Source: Candidatus Eiseniibacteriota bacterium
GTDB taxonomy: Bacteria > Orphanbacterota > Orphanbacteria > Orphanbacterales > Orphanbacteraceae
Length of the DNA stretch: 64,000 nucleotides
Assembly: GCA_024276995.1 (NCBI GenBank)
Contig: JAJRWB010000043.1
Location: forward strand, 62,001 to 126,000
Direction of reading: 5' to 3'
Shown: positions 430 through 15,135 of the stretch, piece by piece
How the letters are laid out: the number at the start of each line of letters is the position of its first letter
Position numbering within the stretch: position 1 is the stretch's first letter
The notes under the pieces: generated by a model
What the model was told of the DNA's origin: nothing
Database searches by the model: none
The model's input: the letters and a program-made list of their open reading frames with translations, nothing else
Position numbers and translations under genes: made by a program

Positions 430-996
430 TTGGACAGGGAAACGGCATACGGGATCGTCACGGAACATACGAAGAACGAGAACCTAGTGAAGCATATGCT
501 CGCCGTGGAGGCGGTGATGCGTTCGTACGCTCGAAAGCTCGGCGGTGACGTCGAGACGTGGGGCGTTACGGGGTTGCTCCACGATTTCGATTATGAAAAG
601 CATCCGAACGACGATCGCCTCCCCGACAGGGAACATCCTTCATGGGGTGTCGCGTTGCTGCGGGAGAGGGGCTGCCCCGAGGAGATCTGCGAGGCGATTC
701 TCGGCCACGCGTACTACACCGGCGTGGAGAGGAAGAGCGTCGTGGCGAAGGCGCTTTTCGCGTGCGACGAGCTGACGGGACTGATCACGGCGGTGACGCT
801 CGTGCGGCCGTCGCGGAAGATCGCCGACGTCACGCCGAAGTCGATCCGGAAGAAATGGAAACAGAAGGCGTTCGCCGCGGGCGTGAACCGGGATGAAATC
901 GTGCAGGGCGCCGCGGAGCTCGGCGTCGACCTCGACGAACACGTGCGCTTCGTACTCGAGGCGATGCAGGAGAACGCCGGCCTCCTCGGCCTGTGA
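430..996 (+). CDS. HD-domain (HDIG-type) phosphohydrolase-like protein
   Basis: A 188-residue soluble protein. The start is TTG, chosen because AAGGAGG ends six bases upstream and no better start exists. It shows the HD signature G-L-L-H-D-F-D-Y near residues 49-56 and a later metal-ligand stretch G-H-A-Y-Y-T-G near 97, as in small HD/HDIG hydrolases acting on phosphate esters or nucleotides. No sensor or second domain is visible. Such stand-alone HD proteins are widespread and their substrate is usually unknown. It follows a DUF362 gene closely and precedes a membrane protein by 42 bases, which suggests one transcription unit but no pathway. Confidence 0.8.
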   Translation: MDRETAYGIVTEHTKNENLVKHMLAVEAVMRSYARKLGGDVETWGVTGLLHDFDYEKHPNDDRLPDREHPSWGVALLRERGCPEEICEAILGHAYYTGVERKSVVAKALFACDELTGLITAVTLVRPSRKIADVTPKSIRKKWKQKAFAAGVNRDEIVQGAAELGVDLDEHVRFVLEAMQENAGLLGL

Positions 997-3429: not shown

Positions 3430-4125
3430 CTACCGCTTCAAACGGTCGGGGGGAACGCCCAGGTGAAACGCCGCCATGATGAGAAAATTTCGCCACGTCG
3501 TGCGCAAGAGGCCCTCCGATTCCCACCGTCTCGGCGACACGCCCACGGGGAGGGAAAGAATCACGGCGGCGCCGCTTCGTTTCAATCGGCGATAGAAATC
3601 GATATCTTCGAGAACCGGCCACCGGGGAAAGCCGCCGATCTCTTCGAAGCGGGCGCGGAGGACGAAAAACGCCTGGTCGCCGTAGGGGAGGCGCAACACG
3701 GTCGAGCGGATTCCTACGAAGAAATCGAGGAGCGGTTTGTACCACCGGTCGCCTGCAAGGGAGAAGCGGAAGGCGCCCCCGTCGAAGCCGCGGTCGATCG
3801 CCGAGCGGATCGCGTCGATGCCGCGCCGGTCCGGGTCGCTGTCCGCATGGAGAAACCAGAGGATATCCCCCTTCGCCTCGGCGGCGCCGGCGTTCATCTG
3901 GACTCCCCTTCCGGGTCGGGATCGCACGTACGAGGCGCCGAACGCATCGCAGACCGGCCGGGGATCGTCGTCGCTCTCCCCGTCGGCGACGACGATTTCC
4001 ACGTCGCCGAACTTCCGCCGGCACGAGGCGAGGAGGACGCGCAAGGAGATGGAATCGTTGCGCACAGGAATCACGATCGAGACCGATCGGCTCATCGCGG
4101 CCGTCTCGACATCCGTTTCGGTCAT
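3430..4125 (-). CDS. family 2 glycosyltransferase, TIGR04283-like (arsenosugar type)
   Basis: 231 residues. The ATG at 4125 overlaps the stop of the upstream TVP38 gene as ATGA and has AAGGA upstream, which fixes the start. GT-A features: S-I-V-I-P-V-R-N-D near residue 16, V-A-D-G-E-S-D-D-D near 45, and F-L-H-A-D-S-D-P near 87 (DxD-type metal site), followed by a P-Y-G-D-Q-A segment and E-D-I-D-F. This is the layout of the short GT2 family originally described as 'radical SAM/selenodomain-associated transferase 2', now often annotated as an arsenosugar-biosynthesis glycosyltransferase. Last gene of the operon headed by the radical SAM-ArsM fusion, which supports that reading. The sugar donor is unknown. 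Confidence 0.85.
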   Translation of the reverse strand: MTETDVETAAMSRSVSIVIPVRNDSISLRVLLASCRRKFGDVEIVVADGESDDDPRPVCDAFGASYVRSRPGRGVQMNAGAAEAKGDILWFLHADSDPDRRGIDAIRSAIDRGFDGGAFRFSLAGDRWYKPLLDFFVGIRSTVLRLPYGDQAFFVLRARFEEIGGFPRWPVLEDIDFYRRLKRSGAAVILSLPVGVSPRRWESEGLLRTTWRNFLIMAAFHLGVPPDRLKR

Positions 4126-5015
4126 TCCTTTTCCGTCCCTCGTCCGGCGGCGCCGTTTGCGCCGGTGCCGCCGCCGTCGAAGAGATCGAATTCTCCGCCG
4201 GGCGCGGCCGTGCCGGCGGGGGCGCTCTTGGCACCGGCGCCCGGCCGTTCCGCCGCTCGGAGCGCGGCGGCGAGCCTCTTCTTCGCCACCGTGGCGAGGA
4301 GCACCACGGCACCCACGGTGAGTACGAGGCCCGCGGCGACCACCCACGGCTGCACCCCTTCCGGATCGACCTTGCCTGTCGCCACCTGGGCGAGGGTCTT
4401 CATGAGGGAGCCGACGTAGACGTAGAGGAACGAGACCGGAACAACGCCGATCAGCGTGGCGGTAATGTAGTCGCGGAAGTGGACCGATGTGAGTCCGTAG
4501 ATATAGTTGAGGAGGTTGAACGGGAAGAGGGGAGAGATGCGCGTGAGAAGAACGATGGTGAAGCCGTGGCGCCTGGCGGCGCGGTCGAGTCGCCGGAAGC
4601 GGATCTTCTTCGCCGCCTTGGCGCGGATGTAGCGTCGCCCCCCGAACCGGGCGATCAGGAATGCCGACATGGCGCCGAGTGTCGAACCGACGGCGGCGAC
4701 GAGCGTTCCTTCGGCGACCCCGAAGAGAAACCCGCATCCGAGGGTGAGCGGAGCGCCCGGCACCGAGAGGAGGCAGACGGCGACGAATCCGGCGATCATG
4801 GCGAGAGGGGCGTAACGACCGAGGGTTTCGACGTACTCGAGGAGCGTTTCCGCCCACCGGGCGAGAATCGGGCCGGAGAAGAAGAGCAGCGTGGCCATCA
4901 CGGCGACGGCGCACACCGCCGCGAGGATCGGCAGGGGGATGGTTCTTCTGGACAACGTGGACCCGGCTCTCACATTTTCCGCGGGCTGCTCTTGAAAAGA
5001 ATCTATTCGATCCAC
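4122..5015 (-). CDS. TVP38/TMEM64 (DedA-like) membrane protein
   Basis: 297 residues, GTG start overlapping the preceding glycosyltransferase gene by 13 bases. Five or six membrane segments lie between residues 28 and 245. The family core is seen as L-S-V-P-G-A-P-L-T-L-G-C-G-F-L-F-G and later R-I-S-P-L-F-P-F-N-L-L-N-Y, the re-entrant-loop motifs of the SNARE-associated/VTT family. Members act as lipid scramblases or transporters. The C-terminal 40 residues are Gly/Ala-rich and soluble. TVP38 genes often sit beside metal(loid) detoxification genes. Here it is inside the arsenic-type operon, so export or membrane insertion of the product is a reasonable but unproven role. Confidence 0.85.
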   Translation of the reverse strand: MDRIDSFQEQPAENVRAGSTLSRRTIPLPILAAVCAVAVMATLLFFSGPILARWAETLLEYVETLGRYAPLAMIAGFVAVCLLSVPGAPLTLGCGFLFGVAEGTLVAAVGSTLGAMSAFLIARFGGRRYIRAKAAKKIRFRRLDRAARRHGFTIVLLTRISPLFPFNLLNYIYGLTSVHFRDYITATLIGVVPVSFLYVYVGSLMKTLAQVATGKVDPEGVQPWVVAAGLVLTVGAVVLLATVAKKRLAAALRAAERPGAGAKSAPAGTAAPGGEFDLFDGGGTGANGAAGRGTEKE

Positions 5016-5746
5016 GTACCGAAGTCCTGGCGCTTTCGCGACGTCGAACGGATCAGGTCATCCGCGGCGAGCTGGAGCGAGTCGATCCGGTCCACATCGT
5101 ACCATCCGGGCAACACGCCCACGGTTAGGTCGCCTCTGTGGCACGCTTCCGTCAATTCATTATACACATTCGGCGTGCTCCAGGAGATGCGAAGCAGTCC
5201 GGGGAGGGGCTCGTTCGCGCCGATTCCCCAGACGCCCCCGTCCTTCGCCGGGCCTAGGACGACGTCGAAGAGACCGAGCATCTTATTCATGTCGATGAGG
5301 AATTCGAAGGGGAGCGAGGGGGCGTCCGAGCCGATGAAGGCGATCTGTTCATAACCGAGGGCCGCCAGGTCGCTTTGCGTCGCCGTAAGTCGTCCGCCGA
5401 GATTCTCCCCTTCCTGCGGGAGGATATGGGTGGCCAAGGGGAAAGCTTCCGCCGCCCATTGCCGATCGGAACGGTTCGCCGGACAGATCACGATATCATA
5501 GCTCTTTCTCACCGCCCCGAGCTCTTCCTGGAGGAGAGCGATGCACCCTTCGTAGAACCGGAGGGCGTTCTCCTCGCCGATATCCTCGGCGAGCCGGGTT
5601 TTCACCTTTCCTGCAACGGGACAGCGGCAGTAGATGGCGAGCGCCGGCTTCCCCGGTGTTTCGGGGGTACGCTCACCGCGTGTTTCGCCGTGCCGTCCGT
5701 CCGTCTTCCGTGCCGTGTCGCCGGCCTTATGCCGTTTCAGGGGCAA
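5003..5746 (-). CDS. DUF2064 / TIGR04282-like glycosyltransferase (arsenosugar type)
   Basis: 247 residues from a TTG at 5746 that has GGAGG six bases upstream and overlaps the end of the upstream fusion gene by 10 bases. The frame is open further upstream, but only inside that gene. Family motifs: A-I-Y-C-R-C-P-V-A-G-K-V-K-T-R-L-A, which replaces the usual F-A-R-x-P-x-x-G-x-V-K-T-R-L, then F-I-G-S-D-A-P-S-L-P near residue 130 and G-P-A-K-D-G-G-V-W. This is the GT-A-like DUF2064 family first noted as 'radical SAM/selenodomain-associated transferase 1'. About 30 basic residues precede the usual family start. Pairing with the TIGR04283-like gene in one operon is the standard arsenosugar-cluster arrangement. 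Confidence 0.85.
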   Translation of the reverse strand: MPLKRHKAGDTARKTDGRHGETRGERTPETPGKPALAIYCRCPVAGKVKTRLAEDIGEENALRFYEGCIALLQEELGAVRKSYDIVICPANRSDRQWAAEAFPLATHILPQEGENLGGRLTATQSDLAALGYEQIAFIGSDAPSLPFEFLIDMNKMLGLFDVVLGPAKDGGVWGIGANEPLPGLLRISWSTPNVYNELTEACHRGDLTVGVLPGWYDVDRIDSLQLAADDLIRSTSRKRQDFGTWIE

Positions 5747-8235
5747 CAGGCGCCTCCGTCGCCCCCGGCGTCGCCGCAGCAGGCGAAGTCGGGATCCACA
5801 TCGTCCGATCGTCGCGTGATCAGAAACATGCCGCGATACGGCGCGCGTTCGAGTTTCGCCGCCGTGTCGGTGCACACTTCCACCGGTACGTTCCGAGGGA
5901 ACCAGTGCCCCTCCTCGTCGGACACGCCCTTGAAAGGGCCCTTGTATACGGCAAAGCGGCCGTCGTATACGCAGCCCGCCTTCTTCTCGTACTTGTAGCC
6001 TCTCACGGTGACCGAGAAGAAGCGGTGTCCTTCCACTTCACGCCAGAACGATCGTGAGAGTACCTGGATGCCGTAGAAGCCCGCCCTTTCGAAATACGAG
6101 AGGAGTTCCTCCTCGGTGAGTGCCCCGCTGATGCACTCCCCCCACAGCCGCGGATCCTGCCTCTGATGGACGGGCAGCTCCTCCTCGGAAACGATGTCGG
6201 AGATCACCATTCGCCCGTGGTCGTTCAGGATCCTCCACATCTCCCAGAGCACCTTGCGCTTGTCGGGCGAGAGGTTGATCACGCAGTTCGACGTGACGAG
6301 ATCGATCGATCGGTCGGGTGCGGGGATCTCTTCGAGGAAGCCCTTCCGAAACTCCACCACGTCGAAGCCGAGGTTCTTCGCCACGGCGACGCGCGCTTCC
6401 TCGGCGACTTCGAGCATGCTGTCGGTCATGTCGACGCCGATCGCCCTGCCGGTGGGGCCGACCCTTTTCGCCGCGCGGAAGACGTCGATTCCCGCGCCGC
6501 TCCCGAGGTCGAGCATCGTCTCGCCCGGCGCGAGGGCGGCGACATCGATCGGAGAGCCGCAGCCATAGAAGCGCTCCACCACCTCCCTCGGGATATGGGC
6601 GAGGTCGTCTTCCGACGGCTGCACCGGGCAGCAGAGATCTTCCTGGGGCTTCTCGGCGGCGTCGCCGTAAAACCGGCGGACCATCCGGCGCGGGGCGTCG
6701 AGATCCCACGAGCGGACGCACTCCGAAGCGTTGGTGACCACCCCTTCGAGCGACTCCTCTACGGCGCAATGGGCGCCGCCGTCGCCCATACCGGTGACGA
6801 TCACCGGCGCGTTGTATCCCGACTTGCCGTTCGAAACGACGAGGTCGCGGTCCGCGGCGATGTCGGCCATGGCGTCGTAGATCATCGCCTTGTGGAGATC
6901 GCAGTACGGGTCGTCCGCCACCGGCGAACCGCCGTAGAAGTAGGCGTGTTCCACGTCGCCGCCGCCGCAGATGAACTTGAGGGGACATTCGCGACACTGA
7001 TCCTTCTGCATCACCGTGTGGGCGCGAAACCGCCGGGGAACCTCCCCGGACCGGAGGATCTCGCCCAGATCCGTCTCGTGAACGCTGCCGCACAGAAGTT
7101 CGGGAACATTCGCCATCGCCGCCGAGGGGTAGACCTTGCCGTCCGAGTAGACGCACAGGCTTCGCACCCCGGCGCTTGCGAGGTCCCGCCTCGTGCCGGC
7201 GGGATAGCGGAGCCGGCTCTTGTGGGATTCGAAGTTGTCGATCGTCACGCCGTGGCGCGCGCCGGTTTCCACCGCCTCGCGCACCACGTCGATCAGCTCG
7301 GCGTTCTCCGGGCCTTCGAAGTTGCCGTCCATCGCCCGACCCCGCCTGTGAAGCCAGAGGAGGTGGTGATTGCGAATACCGATTTCGCCGGCGAGGCGCG
7401 TGATGTTCGACACGTCGCCCGCGTTCTGTCGGGTGATCGCCGTGGTCAGCGTCGGGTTGAGTCCGCCGGCGACGGCGCGGCGCAGCGCGCCGGTGATCTT
7501 CCGGAACGAGCCGCTTCCGCGGATCGGATCGTTCAACTCGGGCGTCGAGCCGTCGAGGCTGACTTGGAGAATCAACCTGTCCCGGTCATAGACGCCCAGC
7601 CGTTCGATCCGGCGGTCGTTGAGGAGCAAACCGTTCGTCAGTATGGTGAGATCGGCCTGCGGATCGGACATCATCTCGTCGGCGAGGTCGAAGAGGTCCC
7701 TCCGGAGGAACGGTTCGCCGCCGGTGAAGTGGAAACGCTTCGCCCCGAGTCCGCGCGCTTCGACGATGAGGTCGATGATCTTGTCACCGGGAAGGCCGGT
7801 GTCGCCGAGCGGTCCGGACGAGACGAGACAGTGGCTACACTCCAGGTTGCAGCTGTTGTTCGTGTGAATCCACAGTTCCTTCAGCTCCGTCGTTTCGAGA
7901 AACGGCTCCCGCCCGTGGTAGTCGCCGTTCCCCGTGCTGCCGATCGCTCCCGGCTCCTCGCCGTCGCCGAGAAGCACTTTCTGGCGAATCGCGTCACGGG
8001 CGACCGTCTCGACGTGCTGCCACGCCTTGGCATGCTCGAAACCGGTGCACGCCGCGTAGCGGCCGACGACTTCGCCGAAGGCGAGCTTTCCGTCGAACAG
8101 CTCGAGCACGGCGCGCGCCTTCCCATCGACGGCGAGCCAGTTCGGTCCATCCCGGTGGACCATCAGGTTCCATCCCCTCCGCTCGAGGTCGTCGAGGGGG
8201 ATCAGGCGGAGGCGTGTTTCGTTGGTCAGGATCAT
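5737..8235 (-). CDS. PqqD-like / radical SAM-SPASM / ArsM-type methyltransferase fusion
   Basis: 832 residues in three parts. Residues 1-95 resemble a PqqD-type peptide-recognition domain. Residues 118-460 form a radical SAM domain with C129-x3-C133-x2-C136, the T-G-G-E-P motif at 171 and SPASM-like cysteines at 361, 382, 414, 417, 423 and 445. Residues 530-832 are an ArsM-like methyltransferase: C535-C536, L-D-L-G-S-G-A-G-I-D at 575, N-C651-V-I-N-L-S and C701 match the arsenic-binding cysteines of ArsM. The tail (G-C-V-Y-D-G-R-F-A-V-Y-K-G-P) is the ArsM C-terminal domain, and the protein ends in two CC pairs. It heads a four-gene operon with two glycosyltransferases and TVP38. Arsenic chemistry is inferred; the radical SAM reaction is unknown. 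Confidence 0.85.
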   Translation of the reverse strand: MILTNETRLRLIPLDDLERRGWNLMVHRDGPNWLAVDGKARAVLELFDGKLAFGEVVGRYAACTGFEHAKAWQHVETVARDAIRQKVLLGDGEEPGAIGSTGNGDYHGREPFLETTELKELWIHTNNSCNLECSHCLVSSGPLGDTGLPGDKIIDLIVEARGLGAKRFHFTGGEPFLRRDLFDLADEMMSDPQADLTILTNGLLLNDRRIERLGVYDRDRLILQVSLDGSTPELNDPIRGSGSFRKITGALRRAVAGGLNPTLTTAITRQNAGDVSNITRLAGEIGIRNHHLLWLHRRGRAMDGNFEGPENAELIDVVREAVETGARHGVTIDNFESHKSRLRYPAGTRRDLASAGVRSLCVYSDGKVYPSAAMANVPELLCGSVHETDLGEILRSGEVPRRFRAHTVMQKDQCRECPLKFICGGGDVEHAYFYGGSPVADDPYCDLHKAMIYDAMADIAADRDLVVSNGKSGYNAPVIVTGMGDGGAHCAVEESLEGVVTNASECVRSWDLDAPRRMVRRFYGDAAEKPQEDLCCPVQPSEDDLAHIPREVVERFYGCGSPIDVAALAPGETMLDLGSGAGIDVFRAAKRVGPTGRAIGVDMTDSMLEVAEEARVAVAKNLGFDVVEFRKGFLEEIPAPDRSIDLVTSNCVINLSPDKRKVLWEMWRILNDHGRMVISDIVSEEELPVHQRQDPRLWGECISGALTEEELLSYFERAGFYGIQVLSRSFWREVEGHRFFSVTVRGYKYEKKAGCVYDGRFAVYKGPFKGVSDEEGHWFPRNVPVEVCTDTAAKLERAPYRGMFLITRRSDDVDPDFACCGDAGGDGGACCP

Positions 8236-13809: not shown

Positions 13810-14727
13810 TCACACCGGTTTTCGCGCGAAGAAGCCGACACTCGCGGCGACCACCCGGTTCGCCTCGAGAAACGATTCGACCAGCTCCTTCGACAGCCCT
13901 CCTCCGCAACCGCAGCCGCTAACTTCCTCCGAAACGACAAGCCGCGCGATTGCCGCACAGTCGTACTCCTGCCTCGATCTGGCTTCCACGCCGGCGAGTC
14001 CCGCCGCGGCGAGACCCTCTTTGTACTCCTTTTCGGAGATGGCGCCCGCGATGCACGAACCGTGGAGCGCCGGAAGGGAGCGGAGAAAGTCGGGCGCCTC
14101 GTCGAGCACCACGTCGGAGACGAGCATCCGCCCGCCCGGCTTCAAAACCCTGGCGATCTCGGCGAAGACCTTCTCCTTCTCGGGGGAGAGATTGATCACG
14201 CAGTTGGAGATCACCCAGTCGACCGATTCCGAATCGACGGGCAGCTCTTCGATGATTCCCTTGCGGATGTCGACGTTGTTCAGGCCGGCGGCGGCCGCGT
14301 TCGCCTTCGCCCGTTCGATCATTTCGTCGGTCATATCGACACCGATCGCCTTTCCGGTTGGTCCTACGATCCGCGCGGCGAGAAGGATATCGATACCCGC
14401 CCCCGACCCGAGGTCAAGCACCGTGTCCCCCTCGGCGATTTCGCTCAGCGCAAGCGGGTTGCCGCAACCGAACGAATTGACCGCCGCGTCGCGCGGCAGG
14501 GAGCGGAGTTCCTCGTCGGTGTACCCGGCGAGAAGGGCGAGTACCCCTTTCGACGGACTCACCACTTTGCCGCAACAGCTTTCGGACGACGGCGCGCCGC
14601 CGGAGGAGGCAGTGGAAGCCGGACCCTCCATGCCGTCTCGCGCAGATTCCTCTTCGGACGGGGGCCGGGAAACGGCTTTCGCATAAGCCTCCTTCACTTG
14701 TTCCCGGATCTTTTCGTGGTCGCTCAT
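13810..14727 (-). CDS. arsM: arsenite S-adenosylmethionine methyltransferase
   Basis: 305 residues, ATG with GAGGAG upstream; a longer frame upstream overlaps arsR and is not needed. Motifs: C51-C52, L-D-L-G-S-G-A-G-I-D near 104-113 (SAM binding), G-V-D-M-T at 129, N-C176-V-I-N-L-S and G-S-C225-I-A-G-A. These four cysteines correspond to the arsenic-binding residues of characterised ArsM enzymes, which convert As(III) to mono-, di- and trimethyl species. It lies 10 bases downstream of arsR in the same operon, which supports arsenic-responsive expression. Unlike the fusion at 5737-8235, it lacks the long C-terminal ArsM extension. Confidence 0.92.
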   Translation of the reverse strand: MSDHEKIREQVKEAYAKAVSRPPSEEESARDGMEGPASTASSGGAPSSESCCGKVVSPSKGVLALLAGYTDEELRSLPRDAAVNSFGCGNPLALSEIAEGDTVLDLGSGAGIDILLAARIVGPTGKAIGVDMTDEMIERAKANAAAAGLNNVDIRKGIIEELPVDSESVDWVISNCVINLSPEKEKVFAEIARVLKPGGRMLVSDVVLDEAPDFLRSLPALHGSCIAGAISEKEYKEGLAAAGLAGVEARSRQEYDCAAIARLVVSEEVSGCGCGGGLSKELVESFLEANRVVAASVGFFARKPV

Positions 14728-14737
14728 CTGTTTCTCC

Positions 14738-15061
14738 TCACTCACTCCTTTGTGGATATCGGCATGAAATGCCGCTCGGACAGCATTGCTCAATATAATC
14801 TGCGATATTCCGGAGTCGCTTCACGATTTCAGGGAACCGCACACTGTAATGTACCTCTTTCCCCTTCCTCTCCGACCGGACGATTCCCGCCTCGCGCAGC
14901 GTGGAAAGGTGCCTCGAAACAACCGAAAGATCGACCTCGATGCAGCACGCTGTTTCGCTCACCGTGGCGGGTCGGCCGAGATTGATCAGTTGAGCGAGGA
15001 GCCTGAGCCGGGTCGGATCGCCGAGCGCCTTGTAGAACCGGGGGTCGCCGAAGGAATCCAA
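14738..15061 (-). CDS. arsR: ArsR family metalloregulator
   Basis: 107 residues from a TTG at 15061 with AAAGGAG six bases upstream. A GTG at 15097 would extend the frame, but would place the operator palindrome inside the gene. Winged helix-turn-helix: F-Y-K-A-L-G-D-P-T-R-L-R-L-L near 9-22 and D-L-S-V-V-S-R-H-L recognition helix near 44-52. Candidate metal ligands are C39-C40 in the helix before the recognition helix and C93-C94 plus C100 at the C-terminus. This differs from the classical ELCVCDL arrangement. Expected to repress arsRM and release on As(III). First gene of the operon, divergent from a GH113-like gene. Confidence 0.9.
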   Translation of the reverse strand: MDSFGDPRFYKALGDPTRLRLLAQLINLGRPATVSETACCIEVDLSVVSRHLSTLREAGIVRSERKGKEVHYSVRFPEIVKRLRNIADYIEQCCPSGISCRYPQRSE

Positions 15062-15079
15062 TCGAATCTCCTTTGTTGC

Positions 15080-15135
15080 GCAATTGAACAATTGCACCTA
15101 CTTGCAAGTGTAGATGATTCTTCATGAGAGTGCAA
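15080..15135 (-). promoter_or_regulatory. arsRM promoter and ArsR operator region
   Basis: On the minus strand TTGCAC (15135-15130), 17 bases and TACACT (15112-15107) make a moderate sigma-70-type promoter. Just downstream lie two palindromes: ACTTGCAAGT (15100-15109) and GCAATTG-AA-CAATTGC (15080-15095, perfect 7-base arms). The second sits directly before the SD of arsR. Both are in the right place to be ArsR binding sites. The operator role is inferred from position and symmetry. Confidence 0.6.

Follow-up and report, generated by a model that had tools for sequence, protein, structure and literature searches.

An 832-residue protein encoded in the window (the whole 64,000-nucleotide stretch of DNA analyzed) joins a PqqD-like domain, a radical SAM core and an SPASM-like domain to an ArsM half on one chain, and is probably a bifunctional enzyme of an arsenosugar- or arsenolipid-type pathway, doing the work of both ArsM and ArsS. 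Since the fusion lies among the usual neighbors of arsenosugar synthesis, it was deduced that it probably covers the first two steps (ArsM and ArsS). If this is true, the capacity for arsenosugar-type organoarsenicals extends to many phyla where a search for ArsS finds nothing; such phyla would be missed because an unrecognized type of radical SAM, within an ArsM-fused protein, does the ArsS step. With its two active sites on one polypeptide, the fusion would also be a handy object for studying the transfer of methylated arsenic to a 5'-deoxyadenosyl radical. The fusion genes are named only generically because no curated NCBIfam model reaches its cut-off on either half, and no description of an ArsM-radical SAM fusion was found in the literature, also under TIGR04282/04283 and Rv1681.

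Features of the fusion gene and its operon partners, in window coordinates
Feature	Coordinates	Strand	Evidence
Fusion, PqqD-like + radical SAM + SPASM-like + ArsM	5737..8235	(-)	832 aa; 26 homologues aligned
PqqD/RRE-like winged-helix domain, residues 1-95, N-terminal, PNW motif invariant	7951..8235	(-)	AF2, Foldseek, alignment
Radical SAM core, residues 118-304: C129-x3-C133-x2-C136, GGEP, CxHCLVSSGP	7324..7884	(-)	PF04055
SPASM-like domain, residues 357-450	6886..7167	(-)	PF13186, 24.1 bits; per-sequence cysteines
Linker, residues 460-513, C490 and C506	6697..6858	(-)	Cysteine conservation
ArsM half, residues 514-808: C535/C536, C559, C651, C701, C755, C788	5812..6696	(-)	Profiles, conservation
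C-terminal tail CC..CC (C819/820, C830/831)	5740..5811	(-)	Conservation; predicted disordered
TIGR04282 "arsenosugar biosynthesis glycosyltransferase" (DUF2064)	5003..5746	(-)	125.9 bits, cut-off 134
VTT-domain (TVP38/TMEM64/DedA-type) membrane protein	4122..5015	(-)	PF09335, 102.5 bits
TIGR04283 "arsenosugar biosynthesis glycosyltransferase" (GT2)	3430..4125	(-)	211 bits, cut-off 182

Architecture and conserved residues of the fusion

The first-pass annotation had described an overlapping operon of the 832-residue fusion, TIGR04282, TVP38 and TIGR04283, and the open reading frames and profile matches confirmed these four consecutive, overlapping genes. The fusion ORF (8235-5737(-)) is uninterrupted, and its end is overlapped by the TTG start of the TIGR04282 gene. 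At least 30 further genomes, in more than 10 mostly uncultured phyla, carry the fusion, and all complete copies were of the fused form; in a genome of the same family it was found at 69-70% identity with an identical gene order. An assembly artefact as its source was excluded by these independent homologues (the same family and about 30 others). The fusion arose once, and its ArsM halves form their own well-supported clade in the ArsM tree. Two loci considered as second fusion copies (L215 and L216) were dropped, as they gave weak radical SAM matches only.

Pfam and NCBIfam placed Radical_SAM at residues 126-276, SPASM at 357-418 and the ArsM-type methyltransferase at about 516-806. The PqqD and SPASM domains named earlier were both retained, SPASM by PF13186 and PqqD by predicted fold rather than by Pfam score. 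For PqqD the Pfam cut-off was not reached (E of just 0.23 in a homologue). By structure prediction (AF2 pLDDT 95.5) the N-terminal domain adopts a PqqD/RRE fold, Foldseek aligned it to the TbiB1 RRE and to PqqD 5sxy with TM scores of 0.68-0.73, and it is present in all fusion members. Such a domain is unusual for a small-molecule enzyme, which counts against the best explanation.

The RRE/PqqD fold, together with the resemblance of residues 1-460 to the RiPP maturases TigE, CteB and SkfB, would fit an arsenic-modified peptide, in which the PqqD-like RRE binds a leader and the SPASM radical enzyme joins arsenic to the peptide. This product, suggested in the first-pass annotation, was found to be unsupported and is highly improbable. 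The search for a short precursor gene revealed none conserved near the fusion in 29 loci, the recurrent small ORFs all being shadows that larger genes cast in antisense or in another frame. Neither a peptidase nor a peptide exporter was seen among the conserved neighbors, and all partner genes are genes of ArsS clusters. Furthermore, while C361 and YPSA of the SPASM-like domain are invariant across the homologues, the expected ligand position within YPSA is occupied by Ser371 in all fusions, and C414, C417, C423 and C445 are missing from about one-third of them. Because of these missing ligands, auxiliary clusters were concluded not to be general in the fusions.

The CX3CX2C and GGEP motifs of the radical SAM core were invariant in 27/27 complete homologues, from which it was deduced that selection acts on the radical half as an enzyme. 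The top PDB matches of the ArsM half were ArsM and AS3MT. The earlier assignment of its cysteines (CC535/536, C651 and C701) proved correct, and C559, which had not been listed, is also present and corresponds to C72 of CmArsM; all five are invariant in the 27 complete homologues, and all four As(III)-relay cysteines of CmArsM (C44, C72, C174 and C224) are matched. The C-terminal region of arsenosugar ArsM (C755 and C788) is also kept. Between the halves, the linker cysteines C490 (25/27) and C506 (27/27) are possible arsenic hand-off cysteines. In the tail (pLDDT <50), C830 and C831 were found in 27/27.

Gene neighborhood and co-occurrence with ArsS

The fusion and canonical ArsS have in common the neighbors TIGR04282, TIGR04283, DUF547, TVP38 and a MerA-like FAD oxidoreductase, in comparable orders. 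TIGR04282 is usually a single-copy gene; 26 fusion genomes have it, and in 16 of these it is no more than 10 kb away from the fusion (chance about 3e-25). When co-occurrence was counted over 193 relatives, TIGR04283 was present in 24/31 genomes with ArsS, in 18/26 with the fusion only and in about 21/159 having neither. In about 10 fusion genomes neither glycosyltransferase adjoins the fusion, which counts against an arsenosugar-type role. ArsS above its cut-off was observed in just 3 of 32 fusion genomes and is absent from the window's genome, where TIGR04282 and TIGR04283 occur in one copy each. One genome (G089) has ArsS-TIGR04282-TIGR04283 twice and TIGR04282-TIGR04283-fusion once. The shared neighbors, the co-occurrence counts and the near absence of ArsS agree with the earlier proposal that a PqqD/SPASM radical SAM-ArsM fusion occupies the usual place of ArsS in an arsenosugar-type cassette.

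Genes for MerA-like and TVP38 proteins are also common in Marinobacter beside a different radical SAM gene, and therefore only the glycosyltransferases were considered really diagnostic. The Marinobacter loci (L085-L133) were dropped as negative controls, being near-copies from one genus with an Rv1681-type radical SAM gene beside TVP38-MerA.

The genome of the window also carries a further, ordinary ArsM with an ArsR regulator and an Acr3 pump, from which it was deduced that arsenic resistance is in play. This would suit a role in detoxification only, with the fusion acting as an arsenite methyltransferase, the radical half inactive or regulatory, and the glycosyltransferases making cell-envelope sugars unrelated to arsenic. 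Such a role seems very unlikely, given that the radical SAM motifs are invariant and that the glycosyltransferases track either ArsS or the fusion across genomes.

Relation of the radical half to ArsS and the proposed pathway

A search of the radical half against radical SAM families, as the first-pass annotation had advised, gave the Rv1681 family NF049973 as the best NCBIfam match (E of 9e-35 to 2e-44), with ArsS (TIGR04167) far under its cut-off of 300 bits (43 bits in the window, with no fusion above about 67). Given these scores, the radical half was concluded to be either a diverged or an independently recruited equivalent of ArsS. Direct orthology to ArsS was not reached by score, and the trees favored neither grouping (AU test p of 0.77 with ArsS and 0.78 with the Rv1681 type). 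The C-terminal ArsS motif C[FY]GCTAGxGSSCGG is absent from the fusion, where CxxCxxKFxCGGGDxEH or a Cys-poor variant was found instead. The motif CX3CX2C-x-V-x2-[GS]P was present in 26/29 fusions, 22/31 ArsS and 0/24 of the other radical SAM proteins compared; this comparison set is small, and the motif was spotted after the fact.

We infer that the fusion forms a C-As bond by transfer of 5'-deoxyadenosyl to arsenic, with substrates, product, step order and shuttle proposed as follows. The ArsM half would bind As(III) via C559, C651 and C701, with C535/C536, and use SAM to methylate it as far as dimethylarsenite. The radical half would cleave a second SAM and transfer 5'-deoxyadenosyl to arsenic as in ArsS, which adenosylates arsenic (PMC12159101), the putative product being dimethylarsinoyl-deoxyadenosine. 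C490, C506 and the CC..CC tail may shuttle the arsenical between the two active sites. The TIGR04282 and TIGR04283 glycosyltransferases would then assemble the sugar arsenical, while a lipid-linked or membrane step may fall to the VTT membrane protein.

A different C-As bond was also considered, made with 3-amino-3-carboxypropyl as by ArsL (arsinothricin) or with a novel carbon unit; the cassette would then make and glycosylate a new organoarsenical. ArsL sets a precedent for radical SAM C-As chemistry that uses a different fragment of SAM (PMC8552651), the family score does not make the radical half an ArsS, and the ArsM half matched the arsinothricin model (NF040538) in 26/26 about equally to the arsenosugar model (NF038099). 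This alternative was nevertheless judged improbable, as both ArsM scores are far under the cut-offs (178 bits against 500 and 166 against 400, respectively; NF008823 was also unreached at 226 of 263 bits), the neighbors are those of the arsenosugar set with no arsQ-type permease among the conserved ones, and the fusion and ArsS have in common the motif that follows the cluster cysteines. A further reading, rather unlikely, is that the radical half was independently recruited for another C-As route or product, the PqqD-like domain gripping the Cys-rich tail as an arsenic carrier between the two active sites. If this were true, C-As chemistry would have a third radical SAM lineage besides ArsS and ArsL, present in more than 10 mostly uncultured phyla.

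Comparison with known systems

The RRE-bearing SPASM maturases (TigE, CteB, SkfB; PqqE+PqqD) share with the fusion the fold and order of the first three domains. The fusion differs in having no precursor gene found, Ser for Cys in YPSA, further SPASM ligands gone in one-third of members, and ArsM attached. For the Rv1681 family, two genomes (G001 and G005) have a stand-alone member behind an ArsM gene, but only the core half of the fusion aligns, the clades are separate, and Rv1681 proteins are unfused and have no PqqD-like domain. In arsinothricin arsQML, compared here by the NF040538 ArsM score and the arsQML layout, a radical SAM enzyme and ArsM likewise make a C-As bond, whereas the cassette is different and has ArsM and ArsL as two proteins, ArsL carrying one cluster motif (PMC8552651).

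Both activities also occur on one chain in natural fusions of canonical ArsS in three other genomes, as ArsS-ArsM in two (L169 and L182) and ArsM-ArsS in one (L181), each with TIGR04283 in the genome. In these the radical half is a true ArsS (336-413 bits) and there is no PqqD-like domain. The ArsM and ArsS pathway of Synechocystis (NF038099, TIGR04167), in which the two enzymes work together (PMC8552651), resembles the fusion system in an ArsM that has the four As cysteines, the C-terminal region and a CC tail, in its radical SAM partner with HC-x-V-x2-[GS]P, and in the TIGR04282, TIGR04283, DUF547, TVP38 and MerA-like neighbors. It differs in that the radical half of the fusion is of the PqqD/SPASM type without C[FY]GCTAGxGSSCGG, and in that two polypeptides are used there and one here.

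The fusion, its operon and its spread

The 832-residue fusion and the four-gene overlapping operon read from the sequence by the first-pass annotation were confirmed as real by ORF analysis and by NCBIfam and Pfam domains. The three genes after the fusion overlap head to tail in the order TIGR04282, VTT/TVP38 and TIGR04283, the first and last being of families named for arsenosugar biosynthesis glycosyltransferases. An ordinary ArsM and an ArsR/SmtB-type regulator, also in the window, form a separate arsenic methylation operon, and an Acr3 pump gene lies elsewhere in the same genome (G000:C33).

Features of the fusion operon and of the second ArsM operon (window positions unless residues are given)
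Feature	Position	Strand	Remarks
Fusion ORF	8235-5737	(-)	832 aa
Radical SAM core	fusion residues 120-304		NCBIfam + Pfam
SPASM domain	fusion residues 357-418		NCBIfam + Pfam
Arsenite-methyltransferase domain	fusion residues about 516-806		NCBIfam + Pfam
TIGR04282 gene	TTG start at 5746		starts inside fusion's end; 125.9 bits, slightly under cut-off 134
VTT/TVP38 gene	5015-4122
TIGR04283 gene	4125-3430		211 bits, over cut-off 182
Ordinary ArsM	13810-14793	(-)	PRK11873, 284 bits; about 6 kb from fusion
ArsR/SmtB-type regulator	14738-15097	(-)	directly upstream of ordinary ArsM

The N terminus does not reach the Pfam PqqD profile. The first 95 residues were modeled by AlphaFold2 (alignment of 26 homologues) at a pLDDT of 95.5, and the modeled domain matched RRE domains and PqqD (5sxy, TM 0.71) in Foldseek with E values of 1e-3 to 8e-3 and a probability of 1.0; the PqqD-like assignment is therefore correct as a fold. 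In the model of all 832 residues (pLDDT 84.5, pTM 0.85), the first half matches the RRE-bearing SPASM maturases TigE, CteB and SkfB and the second half ArsM structures. The nearest solved structures to the second half are CrArsM, CmArsM and human AS3MT. The cysteines first noted in the methyltransferase half, CC535/536, C651 (CmArsM C174) and C701 (C224), are all present, as is C559, which aligns with CmArsM C72.

The CX3CX2C and GGEP motifs, the five ArsM cysteines, C506 and the final CC were invariant in 27 complete sequences, and C490 was kept in 25. Judged from this conservation, selection acts on both catalytic halves. A role in detoxification only is weakened, since the radical SAM motifs are invariant. 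C361 was the sole invariant SPASM ligand, the expected next Cys being an invariant Ser (YPSA), and roughly one member in three lacked C414, C417, C423 and C445; complete auxiliary clusters are no general feature of the fusions. CC or CxC tails were found in 28 of 29 fusions, 7 of 9 ArsS-linked ArsMs and 6 of 19 others; among these last six, L030 and L032 precede a radical SAM gene and L016 belongs to the same CmArsM-like group.

When 84,980 species genomes were scanned, 31 true homologues of the radical half were found, a lower bound because the scan depends on short exact peptides. They were from Nitrospirota, Planctomycetota, Thermodesulfobacteriota/Dadabacteria, Walliibacteriota, Lindowiibacteriota, Calditrichota, Acidobacteriota, Latescibacterota, Omnitrophota, Myxococcota and unplaced lineages, and the methyltransferase half was present wherever the ORF was complete. 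At L072 and L080 only the exact spelling of the glycine motif was absent (530-536 bits to the methyltransferase profile), and one TAG codon interrupts the L058 copy. Two genomes carry two copies each (G070, L065 and L213; G060, L055 and L214). In the methyltransferase tree the fusions formed one group (97% SH-aLRT), separate from ordinary ArsM, arsenosugar ArsM and the CmArsM-like group, which is consistent with a single origin.

Gene context and the ArsS position

HMMs from recurrent neighbour families were run on 34 fusion loci, several of which are truncated, and on 30 loci of ArsS, the radical SAM enzyme acting with ArsM in the arsenosugar pathway. The respective counts, which also took in two loci that are not fusions (L215 and L216), were 16 and 11 for TIGR04282, 10 (high score) and 12 for TIGR04283, 12 and 7 for DUF547, 13 and 13 for both a MerA-like oxidoreductase and TVP38, and 16 and 2 for a PHO4-type (PiT) phosphate transporter. 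The transporter adjoins the fusion in its 16 loci, and in the canonical clusters L186 and L212 it separates ArsM from ArsS; it may serve the pathway by transporting arsenate, phosphate or an arsenical. Gene orders were similar, as in TVP38-MerA-DUF547-TIGR04283-fusion-TIGR04282 (L082) versus ArsS-DUF547-TVP38-MerA-TIGR04282-TIGR04283 (L208).

TIGR04282 is almost always single copy in fusion genomes, and 16 of 26 have it no more than 10 kb from the fusion (chance probability about 3e-25). Among 193 relatives, TIGR04283 was present in 24 of 31 ArsS genomes, 18 of 26 fusion-only genomes and about 21 of 159 with neither, the last an upper bound, since a fusion is carried by one or more of these 159 (G212, which appears to be the L070 genome).

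Of 32 fusion genomes, just 3 have a hit above the cut-off of the ArsS family TIGR04167, and the window's genome is not among them. One of the three, a Myxococcota MAG (G089, with L084), has ArsS-TIGR04282-TIGR04283 on two contigs and TIGR04282-TIGR04283-fusion on a third; the fusion there thus occupies the ArsS position beside its own glycosyltransferase pair. The earlier proposal that the fusion replaces ArsS is supported by context and by the near exclusion of ArsS, while its chemical part, C-As bond formation by the radical half, is what we infer.

Proposed reaction and product

Beyond the directly supported architecture, conserved residues, single clade, gene context and near exclusion of ArsS, a reaction sequence can be proposed. 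The ArsM site would methylate As(III), C490/C506 and the tail cysteines would hand dimethylarsenite on to the radical site, and a 5'-deoxyadenosyl radical would make the C-As bond by analogy with ArsS, which uses this radical (PMC12159101, PMC8552651); the glycosyltransferases would then elaborate the sugar arsenical. An ArsL-type reaction by the radical half is possible, but gene context lends it no support. The arsenic-modified peptide suggested at first was not borne out: no small ORF was conserved near the fusion in 29 loci, the SPASM ligands are incomplete, and there were no peptide-type neighbours.

Relation to ArsS and the Rv1681 type

The nearest NCBIfam family to the radical half is the Rv1681 type; two genomes from the family to which the window belongs have a stand-alone relative of it after an ArsM gene. 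There a CmArsM-like ArsM with a CC tail precedes the radical SAM gene (L049/L032, G001; L050/L030, G005), and an arsenic role for the uncharacterised Rv1681 family is possible. In Marinobacter and Tamilnaduibacter (L085-L132), a 320-aa Rv1681-type protein adjoins a TVP38-MerA fusion protein genus-wide, and no ArsM was seen near it. At L053 (G037:C268, 3-1508 (-)), an ArsM-like methyltransferase with one in-frame TGA, possibly selenocysteine, reads on in frame into a radical SAM domain; TIGR04282 is about 2 kb off, the contig end cuts the gene, and it is apparently another ArsM-radical SAM fusion.

Fusion, ArsS and Rv1681 type formed three clean groups whose joining the trees leave unsettled, the AU test rejecting neither fusion + ArsS nor fusion + Rv1681 type. 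The 33 ArsS ORFs included canonical ArsS-ArsM single ORFs at L169 (G111; 663 aa) and L182 (G178; 654 aa) and the reverse order at L181 (G174; 610 aa). The two activities have repeatedly been joined, with either one first, a pattern that would suit the channelling of substrate from one to the other.

The radical half does not qualify as ArsS under the family's cut-off, scoring 43-67 bits to TIGR04167 against 300. Profile-profile comparison aligned the two over 268 columns including the SPASM region (probability 98.9, E 2e-17). They also have in common a motif that follows the cysteines of the cluster, C-x-H-C-x-V-x2-[GS]P, found in 26 of 29 fusions, 22 of 31 ArsS and 0 of 24 other radical SAM proteins; having been spotted after the fact, it is support rather than proof. 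The literature searched, which covers few subscription papers, does not describe a fusion of a PqqD/SPASM radical SAM enzyme with ArsM; to the extent of that search the form of the enzyme is novel, and the type of pathway is already known.
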